Source of the DNA: Candidatus Heimdallarchaeota archaeon
Lineage (GTDB): Archaea > Asgardarchaeota > Heimdallarchaeia > Heimdallarchaeales > Heimdallarchaeaceae
Assembly (NCBI GenBank): GCA_023132955.1
Contig: JAGLXK010000488.1
Coordinates: 1-44,894, forward strand
Direction of reading: 5' to 3'
DNA length: 44,894 nucleotides
In this document: piece after piece, positions 19,788 through 34,098 of the stretch
Numbering within the stretch: position 1 is the first letter of the stretch
Layout: the number at the start of each line of letters is the position of its first letter
Made by a program: the position numbers and the translations under genes
The notes under the pieces: generated by a model
What the model was told of the DNA's origin: nothing
Database searches by the model: none
Seen by the model: the letters and a program-made list of their open reading frames with translations, nothing else

Positions 19788-22748
19788 TTAAACACACACT
19801 TTTTCCATCCAATCTACTGAATTTTTCCACGAATAACTTGTTTTTGAATCTAAATTATCTTTACCTTTGCTAAAAACAAGTGGTGCTATCCCCGACTCTA
19901 AAATCTTCAAAATCTTAAGAAATAAAGGATTGTAGTTACAAAACAAAGTTAACTCTGCCTTAATATCACGTATGCTCTCTTTACTAGAATTCTTAAACCT
20001 TATATTGGCAAATGCTGGTAGCACCTCTATCTTTCTGTCAAAAACTTTGCCAGAGTTTTTATTCACTATATAGTGGATTAACCATTTTTGACCTTCAATT
20101 TTTTTTATAGACTTGAATGTTATATTCCATCCAGATTTTATGAAATAGCTATTTAAAATCATATCCTCTGTTAATAGGAAGAGATTCTTCTTCAGATAAT
20201 CCAACAGTGAATTACTAAATTCTTTCCAAACCTCATTATATTCAAAGAACAAGTAGATGAATAATTTCATCATGATTTCTCTGTTTTCACCTCTTAATAG
20301 GTTAAAAGAAATAGCAGGTTTGGAATACAATGTCTCAATTGCATCGTTAATTTCATCAACATGGCTTAACATCTCTCTTATTCTTTCTATATACATCTCT
20401 CTTGCCTTCACCCCTTTTTTTCCCGCACGTATTCCATCGACTCTGCAGAATCTAAATTTCAATTCAGAATGCCTTGTTGACGATTTTCCTGACTTTATTG
20501 CTATAGGGAATGTAGATAGAACATTTCGATCTAAGAATCTATTTATGCTAAAAATCTCATTGAAGTCAATCTTGATATTTAAATATGGATTTTCCATTGA
20601 AGAAAGATTTTTATCATCGCCAAATGTTCTTACTGGATTACTTTTCTCATCCAGAAATATTAGCGACCTAACTAAATCTCCTTGTTCAAACAGGTTCTTA
20701 CGAAGTTTTAACCTTGTGTTCCCTTTTAGCAAATACAAAATGCTGAATATAAGGGAGTGTTCAGGATCAGTCTTTACTTTTTGTTCGAAATCTTCTTCCG
20801 AAAAATCTTTAGAAGTCATTTCTTTAAGGAAATCTAATACTTCTTTATCATTATAAGAAAATAGTTTTTTGAACGCTAGTTCCTTGGTTTCACTTAATTT
20901 TATAGGATTGTTTCGACTTATTTCCTTTAGTTTGCCATAAAGAGGTAGTTTCCAAACGTAATTCGTTGTATATGGAATTGCTGAATACATCTTTTGGTTT
21001 TTCTCAAGCCATAGTTTAACATTTGAAATATCTTCTGAAGCAATTTCACTACATACAAACGTTTTACCATCTTTGAGCATCTCAAATGATGTAAAGTTTT
21101 TGCTATCTATAAGATACTGATAGATTTCGTGAAGGATCTTATTATATGCAAACAGGAGAGATTCAATGTATTTAGGAGAAGCTACAGTCTCTTCAATTTT
21201 ACAATTTCTACTTATTGAGATAGACTTGAAAATAGAGTTCAGTTGATAGTATAATTCTGAATTAAAAACTGAATGAGTTTTTTGTATTTTCTTAAGTAAT
21301 TTCTGTGAATACCCTTCAATTGATACAATATAATCTCCTTTTTCATTTTTTATAGGTTTGAAAGAAAATATTTCACCAATAATACAAAGGGGTTGTTCTT
21401 TTCTATTTATGATATCTAGATGATTGATTACTTTCGATTCGTCACTTAGTGTATAACCATTCTGCATCAAGGCTATCAAACGATGGTTGTCTTTTGCAGA
21501 TTTAATTAATTTCCTTGTCAATTGTTTTGCATTCGGAATCTTATTTCTCTCCAAACCAAAAATTAGGTCATGTTGATATTTCGTTGATTTCATTTTTTGC
21601 AGAAAATTGTTACCCTGTGCATCATAGTAATAGGTATATCGTTTAAACAAAGAATTAGAAAAGTCAATGCTTTGAAGTACTGTAAACCCTATTTTCTGAA
21701 GAATATCTTGAAACTTATTGTTAGTACGTTTTTGAGCTAGATTAAAAACTGATTTATGTAGAGGATCACCTATATTTTTGAAGTTTTTACATATAGAATA
21801 ACTGCCACCACATTTTTGTTCTGAAAACCATAATTCGAATTTATTGCGATTAAGTAAAGTAAAATAAGAATCAAAACCTAAAGATACGCTGGATTTGAAC
21901 CTAGAGAAATCCGAATGAACAATTACTTTTTGACTATCCTTTGAAATGTGTTGTTTTCCTCTAAACTCATCTCGATCATGATTTATTTTTATCCAAACAT
22001 TCTGGAAGAACTCATGCATAGATCCATAATCAAAACCTAACACTTTCTTATCAAAATCAGACATGCAAGCCAAGTAGATGGTAAATATTCTAGCTTCTTC
22101 ATGAGTTAAATCATGCTTCTTCCTAATATTTTCAGTTATATCCGAACCATGTTTGTTGAAAAATTCCCTTGTAATTTTTCGTTTATGATCTTCATCATAT
22201 CCTTTTCCAAAAAGAACATTTCTTGTATAAGAATCATAGATTTCCTTAGAAAATTTCAAACTTTCTTTGAACAAATACTCCCCAAAAAGAATTCCTTTTT
22301 TGTTTTCAATTATTGGTCTCAGATTTTTTATGTGTTCCTTCCAACTCTTTAGGCTACTGTTATCATTTATAATATCACTAATTGACCTCATTTTAGGAAA
22401 GAACAATGAATTTACAAGCTTCACAAAGGATTTGTCATTATCTGGTAAAGTGTTGTATTTGCTTTCTGTTAAGTTTTCTAAAGCTCCCCAGGAGAGGTTA
22501 TCATCAAATTCAATACAGACAATTTGTATTTCATTTGAGTTGATAGTTTCAAGGCCTGAATTCTCTTCTGTTCCTTCGACTAATTTTGCTTTATTGTGTT
22601 TCTGGAGCTTTTCTATATTCTTTTTTGTTTTTTTGATAAATTGGAGAACTTCTTGTACTTCTCTTTTCATTTCTTCGATTTCTTTTATTCTGGTATGTTT
22701 ATCCGCAGTATTCTGTGTATTTACCTTGAGATTAATTTCAATCACCAC
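19788..22748 (-). CDS. Orphan 986-residue protein carried by the tRNA-linked element
   Basis: I do not recognise this protein. It starts at a GTG, with a GAGGAAA stretch some 15 bases upstream and a TATA-like sequence near 22826-22834. Residues about 20-60 are a charged helix likely to coil (EIEEMKREVQEVLQFIKKTK). The rest is a soluble mixture of helices and strands rich in K, N, S and F, with no signal peptide, membrane helix, zinc motif or P-loop. Segments with clustered conserved-looking residues are VIVHSDFSRFKSSVS near residue 275 and RHSELKFRFCRVDGIRAGKK near 756. Codon use is more AT-rich than the flanking genes. It ends 7 bp from the tRNA CCA, so it fills the element almost completely. 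Confidence 0.7.
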   Translation of the reverse strand: MVIEINLKVNTQNTADKHTRIKEIEEMKREVQEVLQFIKKTKKNIEKLQKHNKAKLVEGTEENSGLETINSNEIQIVCIEFDDNLSWGALENLTESKYNTLPDNDKSFVKLVNSLFFPKMRSISDIINDNSSLKSWKEHIKNLRPIIENKKGILFGEYLFKESLKFSKEIYDSYTRNVLFGKGYDEDHKRKITREFFNKHGSDITENIRKKHDLTHEEARIFTIYLACMSDFDKKVLGFDYGSMHEFFQNVWIKINHDRDEFRGKQHISKDSQKVIVHSDFSRFKSSVSLGFDSYFTLLNRNKFELWFSEQKCGGSYSICKNFKNIGDPLHKSVFNLAQKRTNNKFQDILQKIGFTVLQSIDFSNSLFKRYTYYYDAQGNNFLQKMKSTKYQHDLIFGLERNKIPNAKQLTRKLIKSAKDNHRLIALMQNGYTLSDESKVINHLDIINRKEQPLCIIGEIFSFKPIKNEKGDYIVSIEGYSQKLLKKIQKTHSVFNSELYYQLNSIFKSISISRNCKIEETVASPKYIESLLFAYNKILHEIYQYLIDSKNFTSFEMLKDGKTFVCSEIASEDISNVKLWLEKNQKMYSAIPYTTNYVWKLPLYGKLKEISRNNPIKLSETKELAFKKLFSYNDKEVLDFLKEMTSKDFSEEDFEQKVKTDPEHSLIFSILYLLKGNTRLKLRKNLFEQGDLVRSLIFLDEKSNPVRTFGDDKNLSSMENPYLNIKIDFNEIFSINRFLDRNVLSTFPIAIKSGKSSTRHSELKFRFCRVDGIRAGKKGVKAREMYIERIREMLSHVDEINDAIETLYSKPAISFNLLRGENREIMMKLFIYLFFEYNEVWKEFSNSLLDYLKKNLFLLTEDMILNSYFIKSGWNITFKSIKKIEGQKWLIHYIVNKNSGKVFDRKIEVLPAFANIRFKNSSKESIRDIKAELTLFCNYNPLFLKILKILESGIAPLVFSKGKDNLDSKTSYSWKNSVDWMEKVCV

Positions 22749-22878
22749 GAAGAAACTTGATTTCCTCTAAGTTGTAAAAATGAAAAGTTTCAGATTCATT
22801 TAACATTAAATGATTAAAATGATATAAAAACGTGGTAAAAATTAAACTATTTTGTAATTAAGCTTGTAGAGTTATTAT

Positions 22879-22933
22879 GAGCCAAAACTGAGAAACCAGA
22901 TGGTCGGTGGTTCGAATCCGCCGTGCCCCACCA
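22879..22933 (+). repeat. Right copy of 55-bp direct repeat: detached tRNA 3' part
   Basis: It contains the 3' part of the tRNA intron, the 3' anticodon strand (CCAGA instead of CCAGT), the variable loop, the T-arm (TTCGAAT loop), the acceptor 3' strand GTGCCCC and ACCA. No 5' half lies upstream, so it cannot make a tRNA by itself. It marks the distal end of the element. Confidence 0.85.
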
Positions 22934-22993
22934 TTTTTGTCAAATACTAAAGGTTAAAACTCTTTTTTGTAAAAATAGCTATTAAGTGATTTT

Positions 22994-23509
22994 ATGAGTA
23001 AGGTATTAGTTTCTTATCAAACATTATATGGGGCAACAAGAGAAGCTGCTTCTGTAATTGCAGATACTCTTGAGAAGGATTACGGATTTCAAGTTGATCT
23101 ATATCAGTTAGAAGAAAATAAAATTACTCCCGATTCTTCTGATTACGAAAGCATAATTATTGGAAGTTGCATTTTCCATGGAAAGTGGGGAAAAAGTGCT
23201 GAAGAATTTCTGAGAAATGATTTTACTAACAAGAATGTTGCTGTTTTCGTTTGTGCAGGTTTCGCTGGAGAAGAAAGACTTCACAATCAAGCACATCGAG
23301 TTTTCCTTGAAGAGGTCTTAGAGAAGTATCCACGGTTAAAACCAGTTTCAATGAAAGCCTTTGGTGGAAGAGTGCCAAGAGCAAAAATTCCTCATATTTG
23401 GTATCTGCAAACAACGAAAAAGATGCCAAGTTTTGGTTATGATACTAGAAATTTGGAAAAAGTCAAGGAATGGGCTCATGAACTAGGAAGCTTATTTCGC
23501 AAAACCTAG
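22994..23509 (+). CDS. Flavodoxin-domain protein (HemG / menaquinone-dependent protoporphyrinogen oxidase-like)
   Basis: The 171-residue protein starts MSKVLVSYQTLYGATREAAS, a flavodoxin FMN phosphate loop (S/T-x-T-G-x-T type, here YQTLYGAT). SIIIGSCIFHGKWG and VFVCAGFAGEERLHNQ form the other two flavin-binding loops. Length fits Flavodoxin_5 / HemG-like proteins. The electron partner is unknown. It lies just outside the tRNA-linked element and 97 bp before the R15P isomerase gene. Confidence 0.85.
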   Translation: MSKVLVSYQTLYGATREAASVIADTLEKDYGFQVDLYQLEENKITPDSSDYESIIIGSCIFHGKWGKSAEEFLRNDFTNKNVAVFVCAGFAGEERLHNQAHRVFLEEVLEKYPRLKPVSMKAFGGRVPRAKIPHIWYLQTTKKMPSFGYDTRNLEKVKEWAHELGSLFRKT

Positions 23510-23575
23510 TAGAAAATTTGTTCAAACCGCAAGTCTTTATAAACGGGTTTTATATTGATGTTATTATCTTTAAGA

Positions 23576-23586
23576 TATATATAAAA
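23576..23586 (+). promoter_or_regulatory. TATA box of the R15P isomerase gene
   Basis: TATATATAAAA lies about 26 bp upstream of the TTG start at 23607. A GGTGA ribosome binding site also lies between them. Confidence 0.45.
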
Positions 23587-23606
23587 TACCTAATAGGTGA
23601 ATTACA

Positions 23607-24542
23607 TTGGATTCAGCATTTCAACAAGTTGTTGAAGATATACGAACCTTGAGAATTCAAGGAGCTACAAATATCGCAATTGAGGGGGTAAAAGCCTTTG
23701 CTTCATTAGCTACTCGTCTTGAAGTTTCCTCATTAGATAATCTCTTTGAAGAACTGGAAAAAGCTAGATACATTTTAGCTACAGCTAGAGCTACTGAACC
23801 TGCTCTTCGAAACGGTTTGAGATATGTTATTTATAATCTGCATGAAAAAGCAAATTCTGTTCAAGAAGCCAAAGAAATTGCTAACTCATTTACTCAAGAG
23901 TATGTTAACCTACTCAAAGAATCGAAAAGGAAGGTTATTTCCTATGGTGCCCATAGAATTAAACCAGGAAGTACTATTATGACCCATTGTCATTCTTCTT
24001 TATCTACTGGGGTCATTCTAGAAGCACATAATCAAGGCAAAGACATACGAGTTTTCTGTACTGAAACTCGCCCCTTATATCAAGGACGAATTACTGCCAA
24101 AGAATTAGTTGAAGCAGGGATTACAACTACTCAAGTTGTTGATAGTGCAATGAGATGGGTATTGAATAGGCATGATGTTGACATCATAATTACGGGAGCA
24201 GATGCAATTACAAGTCAAGGTACAGTCATTAATAAAATTGGAACACGGTTATTAGCTCTTGCTGCTAAAGAAATGGATATACCATTTTATACAGCGATTA
24301 ATCTCCTAAAGTATGATCCTGAAACGAGTATTGGCAAACTATCAGAAATAGAAATGAGAGCAGGAACAGAAATTTGGGAAAATCCTCCAGAAGGATTGAA
24401 TTTTCTAAATCCTGCGTTCGAAACTGTGTCCTCTGATTTGATTGATGGTATAATAACAGAATCAGGTGTTTTTTCACCTTCAATAGTTTATATGATAATT
24501 AAGGAGAAGTATCCCTTTATGATAATTAGTGAGGATACATAG
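23607..24542 (+). CDS. Ribose-1,5-bisphosphate isomerase (e2b2)
   Basis: The 311-residue protein belongs to the eIF2B-alpha-like isomerase family: TIMTHCHSSLSTGVILEA, VFCTETRPLYQGR, ADAITSQGTVINKIGT, and a C-terminal ENPPEGLNFLNPAFETV. This archaeal branch converts ribose 1,5-bisphosphate to ribulose 1,5-bisphosphate in the AMP pathway, feeding RuBisCO. It starts at TTG after AGGTGA. Only 29 bp after its stop is a copy of the first codons of the RuBisCO gene, so an isomerase-RuBisCO operon was probably the original state. The third enzyme, AMP phosphorylase, is not in the window. Confidence 0.9.
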   Translation: MDSAFQQVVEDIRTLRIQGATNIAIEGVKAFASLATRLEVSSLDNLFEELEKARYILATARATEPALRNGLRYVIYNLHEKANSVQEAKEIANSFTQEYVNLLKESKRKVISYGAHRIKPGSTIMTHCHSSLSTGVILEAHNQGKDIRVFCTETRPLYQGRITAKELVEAGITTTQVVDSAMRWVLNRHDVDIIITGADAITSQGTVINKIGTRLLALAAKEMDIPFYTAINLLKYDPETSIGKLSEIEMRAGTEIWENPPEGLNFLNPAFETVSSDLIDGIITESGVFSPSIVYMIIKEKYPFMIISEDT

Positions 24543-24569
24543 AACATTTATGATTAATTTTGGTGACAA

Positions 24570-24615
24570 ATATGAAAGATAAATATAAAGAATTACTAGT
24601 TGCTCGTTATTATGT
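24570..24615 (+). repeat. Left copy of a 46-bp perfect direct repeat (RuBisCO 5' end)
   Basis: Identical to 29422-29467 at all 46 positions. It begins two bases before the ATG and ends within codon 15. No similarity is seen upstream of the repeat. Confidence 0.9.
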
Positions 24616-24658
24616 GGAACATGTAAAAAGTGTTGATGTAGCCGCAGAGGAGAACTGA
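24570..24658 (+). pseudogene. Truncated 5' copy of the RuBisCO large-subunit gene
   Basis: The ATG at 24572 opens a 28-codon frame, MKDKYKELLVARYYVEHVKS followed by eight residues and TGA. The first 20 residues equal those of the intact RuBisCO at 29424, and the next eight (VDVAAEEN against VEQAGEDI) are still alignable. Bases 24570-24615 are identical to 29422-29467; beyond that, third positions and then whole codons differ sharply. It is a leftover or element-borne 5' fragment. Confidence 0.85.
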
Positions 24659-24677
24659 AAAAACTACTTCAATGATA

Positions 24678-25898
24678 CTATCTAAATGACACTTTATAAT
24701 ATTTCCTAATTTCTTCTTCTGTAGCTATAGTTATAGCTGGATAAACTCTTGCTTTTAATTTCTTAGCCTTTTCAATAATTTGTTGTCCCTGATTCTTATC
24801 TTTACTTTGTAAAAATTCCTTACCAATAATACTGAGAATATACCAATCTGTAAAATTCTCATTCTGCAAAATCTTTTCATAGTATTTAATTCTTTTTTCT
24901 GTATCTTCTTCTGTAACTTTTTCTATCTCAAACCATCTACCATAATGATAGAGAGCATAAGGATTGTTGGGTTCTAGAGAAACAGCTTTTTCAAGACATT
25001 TTGTCCCTTCTTTATGTTTACATTTTCTGAAAAGAGCATGACCTAGTTTTATTGTTTCCTCTACACGATTAGGAAAACTATGAAAGTTTTCACATGCTTC
25101 ATCAAAAGCAATTCTAACCTCTTCAATAGAACCAATTATTTCTTTCATTCGCAAATTTATTGTCCATAAAAAGAGGTTGTCGAAGACCGTATAGCGAGGA
25201 TCATGGTGAATGTAAGGAAGATAGTATTCTTCTTTGTCATAATAAACTCTATGAAGATCCGTTCCATCTGATAGTAAGAAATATAGTATTTTCCCCAAAG
25301 AGTAAATATCCAACTTACAGGAAACTTCATCAAGCCTACCAAGTTCTGTATCTGGATGCGAATAGATTTTTGAGCCTACCCTTTCATTGGTAGTAGTAAA
25401 ACGTGCAGTTTCATCCTTAATAAAAACTATTCCAAAATCTGCAATTTTGGGGATTCCTTCTTTCATGAGGGTATTTGTTGGTTTAAGGTCTCTATGAATT
25501 ATCGGTGAATTATTATTATGTAGTGATTCTACACCATCCAATATTTGATGAAAGAGATTAATTTTTTCATCAAAAGATAGCTTGTTTTGACTTAGATATT
25601 TTGATAGATTTGTATCAGCTTTTTCCATAACAAAATAATAAATCTCGTCCGTACATTTTCCCTTATCTACATATTGAATAAAATTTTTATGAGGTTTTAA
25701 ATCTAAAAGATATTCTTCCTTTTCAAATCTTTTTTTTACTTTTTCTTTATCTTTTCTTCTTTTATACTTTCTCAAATCAACTATTTTGATCGCATACTCT
25801 TTATCATCTAAAACTTTTCTTGCAGAATAAACTACTCCTTGTCCTCCACTACCAAGATAGTCCTCGTTGCTATATTCCCACCCTTTACAATTATACAT
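24678..25898 (-). CDS. Hanks-type serine/threonine protein kinase with C-terminal TPR region
   Basis: The 406-residue protein has a complete kinase core. The glycine loop GSGGQGVVY is at residues 16-24, lysine 38 lies in AIKIVD, the catalytic loop HRDLKPTN is near residue 135, and DFG is near 154. Then GSKIYSHPD and LDIYSLGKILYFLL form the activation segment and helix F. Residues about 270-400 form TPR-like helices (LGHALFRKCKHKEGTKCLEKA, NNPYALYHYGRWFEIEK). No membrane helix is present, so it is cytoplasmic. Kinases of this eukaryote-like type are scattered in archaea and frequently mobile. It lies inside the RuBisCO island. Confidence 0.9.
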   Translation of the reverse strand: MYNCKGWEYSNEDYLGSGGQGVVYSARKVLDDKEYAIKIVDLRKYKRRKDKEKVKKRFEKEEYLLDLKPHKNFIQYVDKGKCTDEIYYFVMEKADTNLSKYLSQNKLSFDEKINLFHQILDGVESLHNNNSPIIHRDLKPTNTLMKEGIPKIADFGIVFIKDETARFTTTNERVGSKIYSHPDTELGRLDEVSCKLDIYSLGKILYFLLSDGTDLHRVYYDKEEYYLPYIHHDPRYTVFDNLFLWTINLRMKEIIGSIEEVRIAFDEACENFHSFPNRVEETIKLGHALFRKCKHKEGTKCLEKAVSLEPNNPYALYHYGRWFEIEKVTEEDTEKRIKYYEKILQNENFTDWYILSIIGKEFLQSKDKNQGQQIIEKAKKLKARVYPAITIATEEEIRKYYKVSFR

Positions 25899-26165
25899 AT
25901 AATGAACGAATAGTATATTATTAAAAATTATACTATTATTTCAAAACTTGCTTGATATCTAACTATCAGCATTATACATTTGTGATTTGACCAAACCACT
26001 AAAACTTAGAGGAAAAAGGAAGAAATGAATAGATTATTACAATGTAATTGAGAATTTGAAGAGTTATTAAAGGTAAGATGATAACTTGATGTTTTTGATT
26101 TTTTTGCAAAGCCATCGTTACACAATTAGAAGATTAAGCACACACGGAATAAAAGTTTACTATTA
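25899..26165. other. Non-coding stretch between kinase and subtilase remnant
   Basis: These 267 AT-rich bases separate divergent genes. A TATA-like ATAATATACT near 25912-25922 could serve the kinase on the minus strand. No ORF, tRNA or repeat is seen; the missing 5' part of the subtilase gene is not recognisable here. Confidence 0.4.
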
Positions 26166-26693
26166 GTGATACTATGCATTCCGAAACAACAGAACTGTGA
26201 CATTGCACAATTCAATCTTTCTGAAATAGAAGTGATAGTTCAAATAACAGAGACATATATTGGTGAACCTATTATTACACGGATATTTGTATCAATATCA
26301 TACCTTGTTTCTAAAAAGACCTTTGCTAGGAATTCTATTTCTTGTTCTACTAATTGCTTGCTCGTTGAGATATATTGGCTTGCACCCGGAAATGGAGTAC
26401 CTGTTTTAACACAACCTTATAGAGATATTATCCTTGGCGTTTACAGAGGAACTTGGGTATATATGGCAGGAACTAGCATTAGTACACCCTACTTAGCGGG
26501 TATAATTGCATTAATTATAACTGGATACCATAATGGGTTAGGTTCTTATACAGATCCTACTGTGCAAAAGGTAATAGATATCCTTCAATATGCAAGTTCA
26601 AGAAGTACTTTTGACCAAGAAATGGGATATGGATACGTTGATGCTTACTTAGCTTATGGGAGAGCATATACGGAGGGGAGATTAGCAACCTAA
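26166..26693 (+). pseudogene. Remnant of a subtilisin-like (S8) serine protease gene
   Basis: Only the last third looks like a subtilase: LAPGNGVPVL, then GTSISTPYLAGIIALI, which holds the active-site serine, and a final YGYVDAYLAYGRA segment like the end of S8 domains. The aspartate and histidine of the triad are absent. The first 60 residues read poorly and contain a cysteine cluster not typical of the family, and no convincing start codon or ribosome binding site precedes them. The gene is therefore 5'-truncated, with a possible frameshift before residue 75. Confidence 0.75.
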
Positions 26694-26768
26694 ATGGTTT
26701 TATGTGTTATTGTACTAGTATAATTAAAAATCAGTTGTTAGAATTAGAGAGTAAGGAGGAAGGATAAT

Positions 26769-27446
26769 ATGAATAAAAAAATAGGTAAATTCTTGACTAT
26801 ATCGCTAATAGTGCTTACACTTTTACTCCCATATACGATGGTAGTAGAAGGGGAAGAATCAACTATTGCTTCTAGAATCTCAGAAATTTCTGAAGTTTCT
26901 GTACTTCACAATTCATATTTTAGTGAACCCAATACCACTTTGTTTGATATAAATGTAACAGTAGAAATTTTAAATAAAGAAGCTGAAAATCAAACAGTCA
27001 CTGAAATATCTGATTATATTCCAAAGGTTTTCATTAATGCATCACTTGAGAACCAATCATTGGAATTTGAACGATTAGGATATGTACACTCAACAGTTAT
27101 GAAATATACTTATCAACCGGGCATTACAGTTGAATATAGTTATGTTGTGTTCTATATTAATCAAACGGATTTAGATCAACTTCCAAATGGCAATTACACC
27201 CTTTGGAGACCAATCAATACTGCTTATCAGTGGTTAAATACTACTAAAGCAGAAGTTTTAATGACTATAATCACTGTGACTTCTGGTGTGTTGAACATAA
27301 CTTATATGGATTTTGATTATAATCCTACTGAAGTAACGAGTACCTCATTCATGACCCCAATAGTATTCTTTTTGTTATTTTCATTAATGGTTGCAAGTAA
27401 CATAAGGAGAAAATCACTGTATAATCAAAAAGAAGTATCTAAGTAA
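26769..27446 (+). CDS. Secreted or surface protein with signal peptide and C-terminal membrane anchor
   Basis: I do not recognise the 225-residue product. It has an N-terminal signal sequence (KIGKFLTISLIVLTLLLPYT), an outer domain of about 170 residues with several N-glycosylation sequons (NTT, NVT, NQT), and a C-terminal helix (SFMTPIVFFLLFSLMVASNI) followed by a basic tail. It is thus a type I single-pass protein. An AAGGAGGAAGGA ribosome binding site precedes the ATG. It follows the subtilase remnant by 75 bp; a protease/surface-protein partnership before the protease decayed is possible. Confidence 0.7.
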   Translation: MNKKIGKFLTISLIVLTLLLPYTMVVEGEESTIASRISEISEVSVLHNSYFSEPNTTLFDINVTVEILNKEAENQTVTEISDYIPKVFINASLENQSLEFERLGYVHSTVMKYTYQPGITVEYSYVVFYINQTDLDQLPNGNYTLWRPINTAYQWLNTTKAEVLMTIITVTSGVLNITYMDFDYNPTEVTSTSFMTPIVFFLLFSLMVASNIRRKSLYNQKEVSK

Positions 27447-27547
27447 AATATCCAGAATACTAAATATCCAAAACTACGAAATACAAAGTAGATGACGATA
27501 TTTTCTCTTCTAATACTTTTTCAAATAAAGACAAAAAACTGTTATTT

Positions 27548-29293
27548 TTGGGATGTGACTACAGTCATCTAGATAGAAATCTAGAGTTGTTTATTGGAAA
27601 CTCAGAAATCTTAAATAAAGCAGGATTGTTTGAGCAATCAGAATACGAGAAATACAGAGACAGGTATAACTCTAATGTTAATTTAAAGACTTCTGGATTA
27701 GTTTTGTATACCTCAATACAATTTATTTACTTTATTAAAGTATATTATTCTAAAGCAACGCAAGAAGAGATAATACCCTGTGTTCTACCATTGTCCTACA
27801 ATTATAGGGACAGAAGAACAAAAATATACATAGAGATTCAGCACAATCTAAATTCAGAAGACAACAAGTATGATTTGTGTAATTTGGTAGAATTTCTTAG
27901 TACTCAAAAAACAAATAATAAAATTATTAATTCCTTTTCTGGAGCAAATGCTCTAGGAATTTATGATGAGAAAAAGGATATTTTTGTTGATCTTCAGGAT
28001 TTATTAGCATACCAGAATAAGGAATTATACGATAGTATTAAAATTGATGCAATAAACTCCGTAATTGAGTTAAATAAGCACAAGAAAGTATCAAATAATG
28101 TATCAAAAGGAGTTATTAATCCGTTAAAAAGCACTAAAATCTTAGCTCCATATTTACCTGTATCTATTCGTTTTGATGAGCAAGAGCATTATAATTACAT
28201 TACATTATCCAAGTACAATCTTGATGGAATGTTTAGAACGTTAACAAATTCCTTGAATAAGAAAGAAACTTCATCATATATTCTTGATGATAATTTTGAT
28301 GTAAGATTAATAGAAATTCTAGGAGCAAGCAGAAAACAATTAGCTACAAATAAAGGAGTTAAGCAACTATTTCTTCGTAATCCTGAACTGAAGGAAGTAC
28401 TAGTACTAATGAACGCACGATTAAATGGGAAGAAATACGATGATTCTTCTTCGGAGGTTAACAATTTTGCTAATGTAAAATATATTCATAGCTTGATTAA
28501 TGAATATTTTAATAATTATGAAGGAAAGAGAGACAAACGCACTAGACTTTATAATTTGAACAATTACGGAGGAGTTAGTATTGATGATCAAATTATTACT
28601 TTGTTATCTTTATTCGCATTCAAATTATATGATTGTATAACAAATTATGGTCGTTATACTCATTCCTTTGAACATTTAAAATCTGAAAAAGATACCTCAA
28701 GAGACGATCCTTGGATATATAGAATTTCCATTAATTTTCAAAGTATAGCTAGACAAGAATGGAACAAATTCATAACTTGGTACCTTAATCATGATGTTTT
28801 TCTTGAAAGTGAGTTGCATATAAACACCATATCGAATTATTTGGATTATAATAAAATAAATAAAAAGACCAATCCTTCTGTTTTCGGTATTCTTACTAGT
28901 TTCCAGCACATCTTTTTTAGCAAGGAATCTATGCCTTTGGTAAATCAAAACAAAGAACTATCAATAGAGCAAAAGGTTTCTAAAATGCAATATGACTACA
29001 TATGGGCTGAAGTAGAAAAATACAATATATCTCTTTTCAATAAATTTAATCTTGTAAAATTTGCATTCTATGACACAGTCATTAGAGTGCGGTGTTCATT
29101 AATGAATATTGGTACTAAGAAACGTAAATACTACTTCCAATCAATTGATAATTCTGTAAGAAAAGTCCTTAGCTCACTTACAGAAAATGATAATTCAATA
29201 AATGATGAAAACGCAAACTGTATAATAGACCTTGAAAAAGCAAGATTGCTTAGTTATATGACTAATACTCAATTAATACAAAGACAATATTAA
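27548..29293 (+). CDS. Orphan 581-residue protein of the RuBisCO island
   Basis: I do not recognise it. It is a soluble protein rich in N, K, Y and I, with no signal peptide, zinc motif or nucleotide-binding loop. Recognisable segments are LKTSGLVLYTSIQFIYFIKVYY near residue 50 and IDDQIITLLSLFAFKLYDC near 350. The only start offered is a TTG at 27548, but the same frame stays open with coding-like sequence back to 27464 and has no ATG, GTG or TTG there. The gene may be 5'-truncated or begin at a non-standard codon. Codon use is strongly AT-biased (many ATA, AAT, TTA), unlike the neighbouring metabolic genes. Confidence 0.6.
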   Translation: MGCDYSHLDRNLELFIGNSEILNKAGLFEQSEYEKYRDRYNSNVNLKTSGLVLYTSIQFIYFIKVYYSKATQEEIIPCVLPLSYNYRDRRTKIYIEIQHNLNSEDNKYDLCNLVEFLSTQKTNNKIINSFSGANALGIYDEKKDIFVDLQDLLAYQNKELYDSIKIDAINSVIELNKHKKVSNNVSKGVINPLKSTKILAPYLPVSIRFDEQEHYNYITLSKYNLDGMFRTLTNSLNKKETSSYILDDNFDVRLIEILGASRKQLATNKGVKQLFLRNPELKEVLVLMNARLNGKKYDDSSSEVNNFANVKYIHSLINEYFNNYEGKRDKRTRLYNLNNYGGVSIDDQIITLLSLFAFKLYDCITNYGRYTHSFEHLKSEKDTSRDDPWIYRISINFQSIARQEWNKFITWYLNHDVFLESELHINTISNYLDYNKINKKTNPSVFGILTSFQHIFFSKESMPLVNQNKELSIEQKVSKMQYDYIWAEVEKYNISLFNKFNLVKFAFYDTVIRVRCSLMNIGTKKRKYYFQSIDNSVRKVLSSLTENDNSINDENANCIIDLEKARLLSYMTNTQLIQRQY

Positions 29294-29394
29294 TAATAGT
29301 GTTTTGTTTAGCTTTCCATTCCTTTTTCTTTATTAAACCTTTAAACCAGATATTACTTTCATTTTATTATTCGAAAACTAGACAAATCATATTG

Positions 29395-29402
29395 TTTAAA
29401 AT
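29395..29402 (+). promoter_or_regulatory. TATA-like box of the RuBisCO gene, inside the island
   Basis: TTTAAAAT is centred about 25 bp before the ATG at 29424. It lies in island sequence, so the island probably carries the gene's own promoter. Confidence 0.4.
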
Positions 29403-29421
29403 GGTACAGAATGAGTGTTTT

Positions 29422-29467
29422 ATATGAAAGATAAATATAAAGAATTACTAGTTGCTCGTTATTATGT
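29422..29467 (+). repeat. Right copy of the 46-bp perfect direct repeat (RuBisCO 5' end)
   Basis: It covers the first 14 codons of the intact RuBisCO gene plus two bases on each side. It equals 24570-24615. Confidence 0.9.
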
Positions 29468-30680
29468 AGAGCACGTAAAGTCCGTGGAACAAGCTGGGGA
29501 GGATATCGCGGACGAAGAAAGCGTTGGTACATGGACCAAACTTACTACAATTGAAAACACAGAGATAGACATTATTCCTAGATTAAGAGCTGAGATTCTG
29601 GATACCAAGGTTATTGGTGACCACGAAGGATATCAGAGTGGAGAAGTATTAATTGGATTTAAGACAGAAACTTTTGATACAGAAGCAGGAATTACAAGTA
29701 TTTTGTCCATGTTAGCTGGTAACCTATTTGGTTTAGGAGCACTTCGCAATATACGATGGGTTGATGTAGAATTTCCCAGAAGTATTGCAGAAAACTTTCC
29801 AGGACCAAAATTTGGAGTACAAGGAGTACGTAAAATCTTAGGTACTGACAAAGGTGAATTTCCAAATCGTCCTCATTTAGGAACAATTGTTAAACCAAAA
29901 ATGGGATTAACAGCAAAAGAATGGGCTCAAGTAGCTTATGAAGCGGCTATCGGTGGTGTAGATTTTATCAAAGATGATGAAAATCTAAGTAGCCAACCTT
30001 TCTGTCCAATAGCAGATAGAACCGTTGCAGTATTAGAAAAGATGGATCAAGTGAAAGAAGAAACAGGAAGAACTGTAATCCATGCAGTGAATGTAACCGC
30101 AAAACATGATGTCATGTGGAGAAGGATAGAGGAAGCTATCGATAATGGGGCTAAATGTTTGATGATAGATGTTATTCTTACTGGATTTCAAGAATTAGCT
30201 CAAATGGCAGCTGATCCAAGTGTAAAGGTACCAATTCATGTTCATAGAACTATGCATGCAGCTTTCACTCGTAATAAGAAACATGGTATTTCCATGTTAC
30301 CAATTGCTAAAATAGTCCGAATGGTCGGTGGTGATCAATTGCATATAGGCTCGTATGGCCAAGGCAAAATGGACACAGAATTAGATCTTGAACTTCAAAT
30401 TAAAGATGCTATGCTTAACCCAATGTATGAATTTAAACCAACTTTTCCAGTTGCATCAGGGGGATTGTATCCTGCGAAAGTACCTAACTTAGTGAAACAT
30501 GGTGGTGATAATATCATAATTCAGGCAGGAGGAGGAATTCATGGACATCCTGATGGTACAAGAAAGGGAGCAATGGCAATGAGACAAGCTCTAGATGCTA
30601 CACTCAAGGGCATTTCCTTGGAAGAATATGCAAAAGAGCATGTAGAACTCGCCAAAGCACTTGAAAAATGGGGCAACTAA
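29424..30680 (+). CDS. rbcL: Ribulose-1,5-bisphosphate carboxylase, form III (archaeal)
   Basis: From the ATG at 29424 the protein has 418 residues, normal for form III. Catalytic motifs are intact: GTIVKPKMGL (both active-site lysines), GGVDFIKDDENL with the carbamylated lysine 183 and metal ligands D185 and E186, HRTMHAAFTR, the loop-6 lysine in GQGKMD, and ASGGLYPAKVP. It fixes CO2 on ribulose bisphosphate made by the upstream isomerase during AMP salvage. A GTG at 29415 is in frame, but the duplicated 5' fragment has no matching codons upstream of the ATG, which supports 29424. The gene is followed by a T-rich terminator-like tract. Confidence 0.95.
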   Translation: MKDKYKELLVARYYVEHVKSVEQAGEDIADEESVGTWTKLTTIENTEIDIIPRLRAEILDTKVIGDHEGYQSGEVLIGFKTETFDTEAGITSILSMLAGNLFGLGALRNIRWVDVEFPRSIAENFPGPKFGVQGVRKILGTDKGEFPNRPHLGTIVKPKMGLTAKEWAQVAYEAAIGGVDFIKDDENLSSQPFCPIADRTVAVLEKMDQVKEETGRTVIHAVNVTAKHDVMWRRIEEAIDNGAKCLMIDVILTGFQELAQMAADPSVKVPIHVHRTMHAAFTRNKKHGISMLPIAKIVRMVGGDQLHIGSYGQGKMDTELDLELQIKDAMLNPMYEFKPTFPVASGGLYPAKVPNLVKHGGDNIIIQAGGGIHGHPDGTRKGAMAMRQALDATLKGISLEEYAKEHVELAKALEKWGN

Positions 30681-30905
30681 CCCACTTTCTTTTTCAATTT
30701 TTAGCACTCATTTTTTGGTAGTGATTTTTACAAACTCTTAAATTATATACACACTACCTTTAAACCTCATAGAAATTGTAGCTATTATCTAATTGAAATT
30801 TTGACAATCTAGAACAATTTTTGATTTACCAAAAGGATGCAAAGAAATCAAATCATGAACAGAAAGATTAAAAATATAAGTAAAACAGATGGAAGTAGAA
30901 AAAAT
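30681..30905. other. Spacer between RuBisCO and tRNA-Gly
   Basis: A T-rich tract (about 30686-30716) can terminate the RuBisCO transcript, and TTAAAAATATAAG near 30868-30880 is a plausible tRNA promoter. No gene is seen. Confidence 0.4.
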
Positions 30906-30979
30906 ACGCTAATAGTCTAGTGGCAGGACTTCGCCCTTCCAAGGCGGGAACCCGGGTTCAAATCCCGGTTAGCGTACCA
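30906..30979 (+). tRNA. tRNA-Gly (anticodon TCC)
   Basis: Acceptor ACGCTAA pairs with TTAGCGT, so the first pair is A1-U72 rather than the G1-C72 usual for glycine tRNAs. The anticodon arm is TCGCC-CTTCCAA-GGCGG, the T-arm CCGGG-TTCAAAT-CCCGG. Discriminator A and CCA are encoded. No intron is present. Confidence 0.92.
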
Positions 30980-31071
30980 AATCTTTTTTAATACTTCTTT
31001 TTTAATGTGTGTTTTTAATCATCATCAAACAGAAAAGATAAATATTGCTTCTAAAATACAACCTTACTCGT

Positions 31072-31146
31072 GCTCGTGTAGTCTAGTTGGTAGGACTCAG
31101 CCCTGCCACGGCTGGAACCCGGGTTCGAATCCCGGCGCGTGCACCA
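31072..31146 (+). tRNA. tRNA-Gly (anticodon GCC)
   Basis: The anticodon arm is CAGCC-CTGCCAC-GGCTG and the T-arm CCGGG-TTCGAAT-CCCGG, with ACCA encoded at 31143-31146. The acceptor GCTCGTG against CGCGTGC has a T3-T70 mismatch (31074 and 31140) and a T6-G67 wobble pair. It lies 92 bp after the other tRNA-Gly and 108 bp before ftsZ. Confidence 0.9.
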
Positions 31147-31186
31147 TTTAATTTTCTCTTATAACACTTATAAACAAAAAAATGTA

Positions 31187-31212
31187 ATACTGACGAGTCT
31201 TCTCGGTCATAT
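31187..31212. promoter_or_regulatory. Inverted repeat before ftsZ
   Basis: ATA-C-TGAC-GAG, loop TCTT, CTC-G-GTCA-TAT can pair with two single-base bulges. It lies just downstream of a TATA-like CTTATAAAC (31168-31176), near the expected start of transcription. It could be an operator or a structure in the leader. It is weak evidence. Confidence 0.3.
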
Positions 31213-31254
31213 TTGTGTTGTTATGTTAGTTATCGAAAGCTTCTCTGAGAATAT

Positions 31255-32418
31255 ATGGATGAACATTATATTATTAATATTGATGAAGAAGAGGATAATG
31301 TTTCTAACCGTAATGAGCCAAATACATTCGATAGTGACGATACGGATAAAGAACTTGAAAAATTATTGGTGAATCAATCAGGTTCTTCTGATCGCTTTTC
31401 AAGTAGTTCTGTCGATTCATACATTCAACAGGTCCTCAAAACAAATAGAATCCTAGCTATTGGTGTAGGTGGTGCTGGTTCTAATGCCATTAACAATATT
31501 GTAACACGTGGAGGGATTATTGGAGCAACTACTGTAGCTGTTAATACAGATGCTAGACACCTTCTAAGTATTCAAGCAGAACGAAAACTACTCATAGGTA
31601 GAGAATTAACAAATGGAACAGGAGCAGGAAATGATCCCAATATAGGTCGTGCTGCAGCTGAAGAAAATGAAGAAGACATGAGAGAGTTGGTCAGAGGAAA
31701 TGACCTTGTTTTTGTTGCTTGTGGTCTAGGAAAAGGTACAGGAACTGGAGCAGCGCCTTACGTTGCTAAGATTGCACAAGAAGAAGGATGTTTAGTTGTA
31801 AGTGTTTGTACTTTACCTTTTGCATCAGAAGGACAATCAAAAATGGATGCAGCTTTGCAAGGTTTAGATGAATTAAATGAACACTCTAATACTGTTATTG
31901 TGGTTCCAAACGAAAAACTACTGATGTATGCACCAGATTTTACACTCTGGGATGCATTTAAACTGGCTGATGATGTTCTAATTAATGCTGTCGTTGGACT
32001 AACGGAATTAATAGTACTCCCTGCAAGAGTTAATGTCGATTTTGCCGATACCAAGAAGATATTGAGCCGTAGTGGTCCTGCAGTCATTGGTGTTGGACAT
32101 GGAAAAGGCGAGAATCGAGCTATACAAGCAATAACCAATGCATTATCAAATCCCTTACTTGATATAGATATTAATTCATCAACAGGCGCGCTTGTTAACA
32201 TTAAGGCTAATAAGAACATATCAATGACTGAAGTCGATACTATAACAACTATGATTACAGATCAAATCAATCCAAAAGCAGAATTTGTTTGGGGTTGTAA
32301 TATTGATGAAGTCATTCCAGATGATGAACTATCAGTAACCGTGGTAATTGCTGAGGTAAAATCCTTGTACTTAACTAAACCTGATGAAATATCTATTGAA
32401 GCATTATGGAGAGATTAA
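31255..32418 (+). CDS. ftsZ: Cell division GTPase FtsZ
   Basis: The 387-residue protein has the tubulin/FtsZ core: RILAIGVGGAGSNAINNI, NTDARHL (T3), the GTP loop GLGKGTGTGAAP (T4, with K in place of the usual second G), VPNEKLL, and the synergy segment NVDFADTKKIL with the catalytic aspartate. Residues 1-60 are an acidic, serine-rich extension without homology. It polymerises at the division site. A stop codon 9 bp upstream makes 31255 the only ATG start. It is followed by an orphan gene and RNA-processing genes. Confidence 0.95.
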   Translation: MDEHYIINIDEEEDNVSNRNEPNTFDSDDTDKELEKLLVNQSGSSDRFSSSSVDSYIQQVLKTNRILAIGVGGAGSNAINNIVTRGGIIGATTVAVNTDARHLLSIQAERKLLIGRELTNGTGAGNDPNIGRAAAEENEEDMRELVRGNDLVFVACGLGKGTGTGAAPYVAKIAQEEGCLVVSVCTLPFASEGQSKMDAALQGLDELNEHSNTVIVVPNEKLLMYAPDFTLWDAFKLADDVLINAVVGLTELIVLPARVNVDFADTKKILSRSGPAVIGVGHGKGENRAIQAITNALSNPLLDIDINSSTGALVNIKANKNISMTEVDTITTMITDQINPKAEFVWGCNIDEVIPDDELSVTVVIAEVKSLYLTKPDEISIEALWRD

Positions 32419-32485
32419 GTAAACTCTTCTCCCCCAAATTATTTTTGGGTTTTTATGCTCTTTTCTATATATATTGTTAGATACT

Positions 32486-33607
32486 ATGTCAAAATTTCAA
32501 ATTCACCACACAGAGGATTTTATTTTATTAGAATCTGATAATCAAGCAATTTCAGTTATTGGTTTTGCATTAACTAAGATGGAAGAAGGGGTTCTCACAC
32601 AACTTTCTAAAAGAATAACAAATTATTTTGATTCTTTTGGTTATTCTTACGTTATTCAAATGACTGAAACATCAATGAAACTCTACTTGATCATTTCAGC
32701 ACAGAATGCAGGTGAAGTAATAAGCGAAGTATCAAATCTTCTAGATAGAATGCAAAAAATTACCCCAGTAAGTCCATTTTTGGTTATATCACAAATAAAC
32801 CACCACAATATTGCTGAAAGCTTACAAGAAAGCTATTTTTCTCCTATTCGGAAAACATCAGAACCCCGAATTATCAAAATGGGAAAGAATTTCATGGTTT
32901 TCTCTTCTATAGTTTTTTCAGGAGAAGAATCTAATCAGCTTACAAGATATTTTCAAGATTTGTTAGCATTTAAACATTGTAATCTAAATCTAAGTTCAAG
33001 AATTCTTAAGAAAGGAAAGAATAAAGCTGGGAAACAAAATAAAGGGATTTTATTGACATACAGTTCTTCAGAATTTGATAATTGTATAGACTATTTACAG
33101 CAATTGAAAATAATATCTCTACAATATAAAGAAAAGATGGTGTTTTCGATACGATTTCATTCCTTAAATGAAATAAAACGCAGTAAGATCCTCTTACTTC
33201 TGGGATTACCTAATAAGTCAGAGATGCAGCTTTCTTGGGATTCATATTTCAAAATTGAGAAATTTATACCTTGTATAAAGCCAAGTTTAAAGAAAAGAAC
33301 GAAACCAATGAAATCCATACGCAAGAAGGAAATCCCCCATTATAATAGAAATAGATTATTTCCTCTTTTGAAGAGTGTAAGATTACCAGTCTTTATGAGA
33401 AGGAAAACAAATCCTGATCAAGAAATTAAGAAAGAATCAACAATTGTCCTAGCAATGGAACAAAAAGAAATGGAGAATGAAGGGGAATCTATACTTGATT
33501 CTGAAAAAAACACAAAGGAACAAGGTACAATATTTCCCTTTGGTCAAGTTGTTTCTGAAAGGAAAATGAAAAAACTAATCAAGAATATTCCTCCACCACC
33601 TCCTTAG
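32486..33607 (+). CDS. Conserved-looking orphan protein of 373 residues
   Basis: I do not recognise it. It reads as a cytoplasmic alpha/beta protein, with two similar halves possible: IGFALTKMEEGVLTQLSKRI near residue 30 and FSSIVFSGEESNQLTRYFQD near 140. It then has a very basic, disordered region (KPSLKKRTKPMKSIRKKE) and a charged tail that ends in five prolines. The ATG at 32486 is preferred over a TTG at 32474 because a TATA box (CTATATATATT, 32465-32475) lies too close for the latter. It sits between ftsZ and the RNase P protein gene; a role with either is not shown. Confidence 0.65.
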   Translation: MSKFQIHHTEDFILLESDNQAISVIGFALTKMEEGVLTQLSKRITNYFDSFGYSYVIQMTETSMKLYLIISAQNAGEVISEVSNLLDRMQKITPVSPFLVISQINHHNIAESLQESYFSPIRKTSEPRIIKMGKNFMVFSSIVFSGEESNQLTRYFQDLLAFKHCNLNLSSRILKKGKNKAGKQNKGILLTYSSSEFDNCIDYLQQLKIISLQYKEKMVFSIRFHSLNEIKRSKILLLLGLPNKSEMQLSWDSYFKIEKFIPCIKPSLKKRTKPMKSIRKKEIPHYNRNRLFPLLKSVRLPVFMRRKTNPDQEIKKESTIVLAMEQKEMENEGESILDSEKNTKEQGTIFPFGQVVSERKMKKLIKNIPPPPP

Positions 33608-33708
33608 AGATAAATCCTTTTTCTTCAAATTAACATTTGGTTCTAAAAATAAAATGAAAAGAAATGTTGATAAGGTGATTTTTTCTCATCCAATAGGGAA
33701 GAAACAAC

Positions 33709-34098
33709 ATGTCTAATGAAAAAACATCTCACCCACGTACAAGGAAGAGAAAGAATCGAAGAAAAAAGTTTCAGGTTTTGTCTCAAGAGGATTTCAAAGC
33801 ACAAATTGTTTCTTTACTCATAAAAGCAGATAAAATTATTTCAGAGGATATGGAAAAAGCCCAGCAGTTTGCTAAACAAGCACGTAAAATCCAAATGAAA
33901 ACTAGAATAAAATTCCCTCCAGAATGGAAAAAACGATTCTGTAAACATTGTAAAGCATTCCTTTATCCAGGAATTAATAGCCGAGTTAGACTTTCATCTA
34001 CAAACAGAGTGATTGCCATCAAATGTAACCACTGCAACAAGTATACAAGAATACCCTACTATAGAAAAAAGGAGGTTAAGAATGAACAACACCATTAA
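33709..34098 (+). CDS. rnp4: Ribonuclease P protein component 4 (Rpp21/Rpr2)
   Basis: The 129-residue protein has a basic N-terminus (RTRKRKNRRKKF), a helical segment (KADKIISEDMEKAQQFAKQA) and a zinc ribbon with CKHCKAFL and CNHCNKYTRIPY. This is the layout of archaeal Rpp21, which binds Rpp29 and the specificity domain of RNase P RNA for tRNA 5' maturation. Its end overlaps the next gene by 17 bp, so the two are translated from one message. Confidence 0.92.
   Translation: MSNEKTSHPRTRKRKNRRKKFQVLSQEDFKAQIVSLLIKADKIISEDMEKAQQFAKQARKIQMKTRIKFPPEWKKRFCKHCKAFLYPGINSRVRLSSTNRVIAIKCNHCNKYTRIPYYRKKEVKNEQHH

Follow-up and report, generated by a model that had tools for sequence, protein, structure and literature searches.

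In a 44,894-nucleotide stretch of DNA from a Candidatus Heimdallarchaeota archaeon (hereafter the window), the gene for the RuBisCO large chain is separated from its usual operon partner, a gene resembling ribose-1,5-bisphosphate isomerase, by an island of 4.8 kb. The window makes up the whole of contig C432 in a genome bin of 3.58 Mb, and the nearest relatives of that bin are Candidatus Heimdallarchaeota. The explanation that we favor, at a confidence falling slightly short of even, is that the island is a decayed giant-gene mobile module related to the elements known as aloposons, that the right end of this module falls within the 5′ coding sequence of RuBisCO, and that the module brought its own promoter and RuBisCO start. 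The locus is compared here with 19 isomerase–RuBisCO loci of the same family, numbered L033–L051.

The isomerase-like gene (23607–24542; IF-2B family, Pfam IF-2B 4e-69) and the complete 418-codon RuBisCO gene (29424–30680; Pfam RuBisCO_large 1e-78) both lie on the forward strand, as do the repeat copies and the island's features given below except a kinase. In 15 of the 19 loci (L033–L039, L041–L046, L048 and L050) the isomerase gene directly precedes one intact RuBisCO gene at a distance of some 30–40 bp; L049 has 186 bp between the two, and L040, L047 and L051 are occupied. The window's isomerase DNA is 96–97% identical to that of its nearest relatives, L033, L035 and L036. Because these are uninterrupted, the window carries an insertion relative to them, in agreement with an earlier note on this DNA, which had proposed that an insertion splits the pair and that related loci should show the two genes side by side. 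A tandem duplication of RuBisCO with one copy decaying might account for the degenerate, RuBisCO-like fragment at the island's left end, and the note had named complete tandem genes in relatives as one finding that would speak against its reading. No relative examined has tandem RuBisCO genes at this locus, and what remains on the left is 27 codons with a sharp break, making duplication the least credible of the explanations considered here.

The island is framed by a perfect 46-bp repeat (24570–24615 and 29422–29467, with a start-to-start distance of 4852), and this stretch, used as a DNA query against the whole genome bin, is found in these two places only. Beyond the right copy, RuBisCO continues as a full-length gene (VEQAGEDIADEE...). 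Beyond the left copy about a third of the bases differ and the frame reads MKDKYKELLVARYYVEHVKSVDVAAEEN before a stop, giving a stranded RuBisCO 5′ fragment (24572–24658) that comprises codons 1–27 (to 24652), then an asparagine codon and the stop. These 27 codons match RuBisCO in a protein search far beyond chance (E = 3e-7), nucleotides (nt) 45–80 agree with L050 at 34 of 36 positions, and the fragment ends within the conserved motif AAEEICDEE, between AAEE and ICDEE. The isomerase flank leading into it is ~97% identical to that of relatives. Thus the identical copies, the RuBisCO-like continuation on the left and the abrupt step from identity to divergence that the earlier note described are all real, and the step is seen in both copies at the same point, nt 44–46. 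Both copies are accordingly mosaics that switch there, since the right one, too, contains a tract that looks foreign beside the nearest relatives, to which it is ~96–98% identical on both sides.

The extent of this tract is apparent when the window, with the island removed, is aligned with L033, L035 and L036. Identity is 94–100% before RuBisCO nt 1 and 98–100% over nt 1–44, falls to 53–80% over nt 45–89, returns to 93–100% from nt 90 to about nt 800, and is mostly 77–90% beyond. Identity is 62% in a 48-nt interval beginning at RuBisCO nt 43, and nowhere in the genes for the isomerase, flavodoxin and FtsZ or in orf32474 does it drop as far. The rewritten segment, EQAGEDIADEE (29468–29516), is foreign against flanks of ~98% identity. 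Specifically, over codons 20–31, 15 of 16 uninterrupted loci encode AAEE[IV]CDEE, the exception being L039 with AGEDIADEE; the window and L040 likewise encode AGEDIADEE, and L047 and its sister L051 encode AAVEIVEEE. The segment is therefore rewritten in 4/4 occupied or formerly occupied against 1/16 uninterrupted loci, a simple hypergeometric probability of ~0.001 for loci that are non-independent and represent about three lineages. At the DNA level, a 33-bp stretch is the same in L040 and L039, with two bases changed in the window. The rewritten DNA uses rare codons (GCG, ATC and GAC make up 6%, 15% and 18% of their families, respectively), and these are common to L040 and the window, though most of the flanking RuBisCO DNA of the two is ~75–85% identical. 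Among 21 genomes this pattern is restricted to the RuBisCO genes of G000, G002 and G012, and a search of RuBisCO genes from other archaea for a donor found none. In the occupied L051, comparison with L044 gives 53–87% identity up to RuBisCO nt 105 and 86–100%, mostly >92%, after it.

Other breaks in identity are visible in and around this operon. The last third of the window's RuBisCO gene (30220–30680) and the DNA downstream are exchanged relative to the nearest relatives, with identity dropping from 97% to 82% and then to ~50%. In L034 and L037, the isomerase is 81–83% and RuBisCO 94% identical at the protein level, placing a further breakpoint at the RuBisCO start. Adjoining the operon, a 986-codon gene (19788–22748) has 82% DNA identity to L036, with intervals near 52%, and is far more variable than its neighbors.

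The other occupied loci indicate what abuts RuBisCO when the pair is split. In L040 (genome G002), a giant open reading frame of >1448 codons ends ~174 bp before RuBisCO, and its C-terminus is 55% identical to the protein encoded at 27479–29293 in the window. The contig of L047 (G010) starts, 132 bp ahead of RuBisCO, with some 20-odd bases (TAATACAAAGACAATATTAAT) that are apparently the end of the same giant gene. Hence in the window, L040 and L047 the giant gene's 3′ end lies 131–174 bp upstream of RuBisCO and is followed by an alignable, promoter-like stretch. L051 (G007) has the promoter region and RuBisCO start in common with L047, but its insert is different, with a 137-codon frame and a beta-propeller-like protein. 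The earlier note had suggested that a new TATA box now precedes RuBisCO, which is plausible: the TATA-like TTTAAAAT at 29395–29402, supplied by the island, lies ~26 bp before the RuBisCO ATG, and L040, L047 and L051, as the other giant-linked loci, have a similar box where they align with it. This spacing is typical of an archaeal TATA box with the transcript starting at the ATG, and we infer a promoter here.

Taken together, these comparisons suggest the following course of events. The module would recombine into the 5′ coding part of RuBisCO, opening the gene, as it were, inside AAEEICDEE at the point where the stranded fragment ends. In place of the resident start, the module would install a promoter, a start codon and the first ~31 codons of its own, and resident codons 1–27 would be left stranded on the left, next to the isomerase gene. 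The 46-bp repeat would then be merely the two RuBisCO starts, from the start codon to the onset of the variable segment. Recombination between these two starts could delete the module and restore the operon while leaving the rewritten segment behind, yielding the allele seen in L039. Rewriting may also shield an occupied gene from the next entry, because it removes the motif conserved in uninterrupted genes. Later decay would have cut the giant gene to ~604 residues and removed the front part of the subtilase gene. We prefer a module that brings the start with it because AGEDIADEE goes with linkage to a giant gene, whereas AAEE goes with uninterrupted loci.

The principal alternative follows the earlier note in treating the 46 bp as a recombinase core: a circular element, its site matching the first 44–46 bp of RuBisCO exactly, would have integrated through that core into a resident gene of the L039 type (AGEDIADEE), and the left-hand VDVAAEEN would derive from the element. 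We regard this as a serious contender that is nonetheless doubtful. It explains a perfect 46 bp with steps on both sides, and L039, in which the isomerase gene, 29 bp and a RuBisCO gene with the right-hand segment AGEDIADEE follow one another without an island, would be an attested empty site with the required sequence. L039 fits equally, however, the scar of a loss through the repeats, and the two interpretations differ in which stretch belongs to the element. The repeat can be explained without core-site integration, given that clade relatives such as L033, L035 and L039 have the same 44 coding bases. It would also need the rare allele to have been present beforehand in both G002 and the window. 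Furthermore, the giant–RuBisCO junction is found in G002 and G010 as well, with no evidence there of the 46-bp repeat; the junction is therefore older than, and independent of, the repeat in the window and was not created by the event that made that repeat. Its expectation of different cargo in other strains holds at L040, L047 and L051, but as far as these loci can be read, no repeat frames that cargo. In L051/G010 the left boundary lies in the isomerase–RuBisCO spacer, ~15–20 bp upstream of the RuBisCO start, rather than within the gene, and neither has a RuBisCO fragment there; a search of the intergenic regions of L051 and L049 for a RuBisCO remnant found none. In G002 no orthologous isomerase was found, the contig ending before the left end of the insertion.

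Several of these same observations weigh against the explanation we favor. The fragment stranded on the left resembles L050 instead of the closest clade, to which it is foreign; this favors integration at a core and means that, if the module did bring the start, it must have met a resident gene that was a mosaic already. L040 and the window resemble each other more in the rewritten segment than in the adjacent promoter and giant gene, so the segment did not simply travel with these. The left boundary is not fixed, as L051 illustrates, and the giant association rests on about three lineages, which are not independent counts. Domain searches recognized no integrase, transposase or recombinase among the island genes, a lack that burdens both the preferred reading and the core.

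It is also worth considering that no dedicated element may be involved, and that the neighborhood of RuBisCO is instead a recombination hotspot in which homologous exchange is combined with illegitimate joining of giant-gene fragments. RuBisCO breakpoints are indeed many (nt 45, nt 90, the 97% to 82% change near nt 800, the start codon in L034 and L037, and a second tract in L039), the subtilase–membrane–giant pieces are multi-copy and shuffled across the genome, and the left ends are irregular. Yet this leaves unexplained both the repeated abutment of giant 3′ ends on RuBisCO with a similar promoter-like stretch and the loss of the conserved motif from occupied genes, and we consider it unlikely.

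The cargo of the island is a mosaic. At the left end lies a Ser/Thr protein kinase gene with a TPR tail (24678–25898, reverse strand; Pfam Pkinase 3e-32), which has no close homolog in the genus (best other match, 31%) and is related by sequence to kinases in an anti-phage library. It is followed by a 5′-truncated subtilase (S8) fragment (26166–26693; Pfam S8 5e-5), a small membrane protein gene of a multi-copy family (26769–27446), homologs of which often lie between a subtilase gene and a giant gene, and the C-terminal giant-gene remnant of ~604 residues (27479–29293). Positions 26374–27509, beginning within the subtilase fragment, are 93% identical at the nucleotide level to an intact subtilase–membrane–giant module in genome G001 (L139), where the giant is 2268 aa and a kinase gene likewise lies upstream. 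The membrane-protein family has up to 12 matches per genome in the genus; pieces of it are shuffled among loci, one of them, in G011:C184, being 98% identical.

The giant remnant has no match in Pfam or PADLOC and its larger homologs no credible one, and a search of viral contigs with the remnant returned nothing. A resemblance of a giant homolog to Cmr4 (PDB match, E 0.03) was too weak and was treated as chance. Homologs exceeding 3600 and 5200 codons are present in G021, and the complete Ca. H. endolithica PR6 genome has one of 6099 codons. A conserved G-x-D ... D ... E-x-K pattern in several giants (L040:1028–2260, L076 and L090) resembles that of PD-(D/E)XK nucleases, although the structure model of a conserved giant segment was poor, with a predicted local distance difference test score (pLDDT) of 42. 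From the window to L040 (55% identity), from L040 to L076 (28%) and from L076 to the 6099-aa tandem giant of PR6 (30%), a transitive chain of homology suggests that the window's giant is distantly related to those of Heimdallarchaeum mobile elements, in keeping with the note's comparison of the island with integrating elements. In PR6 the giants stand in tandem, and upstream of them are a subtilase, a Mrr-type nuclease domain, a DUF4145 protein and a MinD/ParA-type ATPase.

Such mobile elements have been described in Ca. Heimdallarchaeum as aloposons, which carry tandem giants of 3,000–6,000 aa preceded by four consecutive genes, including one for a MinD/ParA-like ATPase, and integrate at tRNA sites downstream of the giants (Wu et al. 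2022, PMC8813620); giants named there include Otus and Ephialtes, and the literature searched yielded no other paper on them. As in aloposons, a giant, probably of the same wide family, closes the module on its 3′ side and immediately precedes the target site, and the subtilase upstream parallels the PR6 tandem-giant locus in the same archaeal family. In contrast, the window has one remnant rather than tandem giants, what was targeted is a protein gene at its 5′ end, the nearest downstream tRNA-Gly lying at 30906, and upstream of the remnant are the membrane protein, the subtilase fragment, the kinase and the resident isomerase, with neither a MinD/ParA ATPase nor a four-gene block. We do not class the window as an aloposon, because the defining features that could be tested are lacking. 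The reported use of tRNA sites lends something to the idea of a recombinase core and also raises the possibility that integration really took place at the tRNA-Gly pair downstream of RuBisCO (30906 and 31072), which would put RuBisCO inside the element. That pair is present in L040 and L051 as well, and the 3′ third of RuBisCO and the DNA downstream are also exchanged. However, RuBisCO and the isomerase gene are already the resident arrangement in genomes without the insert, and a repeat search of 20000–34000 gave no displaced tRNA-Gly fragment, so that this site is very improbable.

Two other known systems offer partial parallels. Integrative conjugative elements of the SXT/R391 family sit in prfC (PMC2786100, PMC2791158). 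As there, a conserved gene is targeted at its 5′ end in the window, and the ends on either side are near-identical. Insertion of SXT/R391 supplies prfC with a new 5′ end and promoter. The window's island differs in having neither a tyrosine recombinase Int nor conjugation genes, and in being 4.8 kb as opposed to ~100 kb. In intronless homing, the freestanding homing endonucleases of T4-like phages are mobile genes that neighbor a conserved gene, and in carriers the target stretch of that gene differs locally. The window, however, contains no homing endonuclease; all that it offers is the PD-(D/E)XK-like pattern in the giants of its relatives.

A possible second docking site lies further along RuBisCO. 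Displaced RuBisCO 3′ fragments occur in G007:C24 (L144:2393–2581, from codon ~324), beside a giant gene and a SIR2-like gene identified by eye, and in G021:C98 (L145:6678–6964, from codon ~321), where a giant-like start lies 4.7 kb away and the fragment adjoins a gene with a homolog in the PR6 giant locus. In L039, a unique rewritten tract covers codons ~317–332 (L039:2800–2860), with AEIEAEAPHLKGALLNQF instead of DTELDLELQIKDAMLNPM in a gene that is otherwise conserved, and a membrane–subtilase–giant-fragment module lies downstream of RuBisCO. The same search with FtsZ in the 21 genomes of the genus found one full copy each and no fragments. These observations are suggestive of traces of a second docking place. 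A more general proposal, that Asgard giant-gene elements dock repeatedly in RuBisCO, always near codon ~27 or codon ~320 as its two fixed sites, and rewrite the gene end so that an occupied gene is immune to re-entry, is one we would call rather unlikely.

Contig ends call for some care. The giant-gene contigs of other genomes are broken, that of L040 ending within its giant gene; L076 and L145 begin with translations resembling what we take to be sequencing-adapter remnants, and the tail of L113 is unrelated sequence. These odd starts and the unrelated tail argue for caution with contig ends in those bins. In the window itself, an assembly chimera at the left junction could be suspected, in that the kinase and this junction are unique to the genome bin; the right junction recurs in independent bins, however, and the resident isomerase flank runs on into the stranded fragment at ~97% identity, and we think a chimera extremely improbable.

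If the favored explanation is correct, then, in the archaea closest to eukaryotes, mobile modules with giant genes can dock at the coding start of a central metabolic gene, where they would change the promoter and N-terminus of RuBisCO and part it from its operon partner. The empty, occupied and scar alleles found within one genus would likewise provide a testable handle on the movement of aloposon-like elements.

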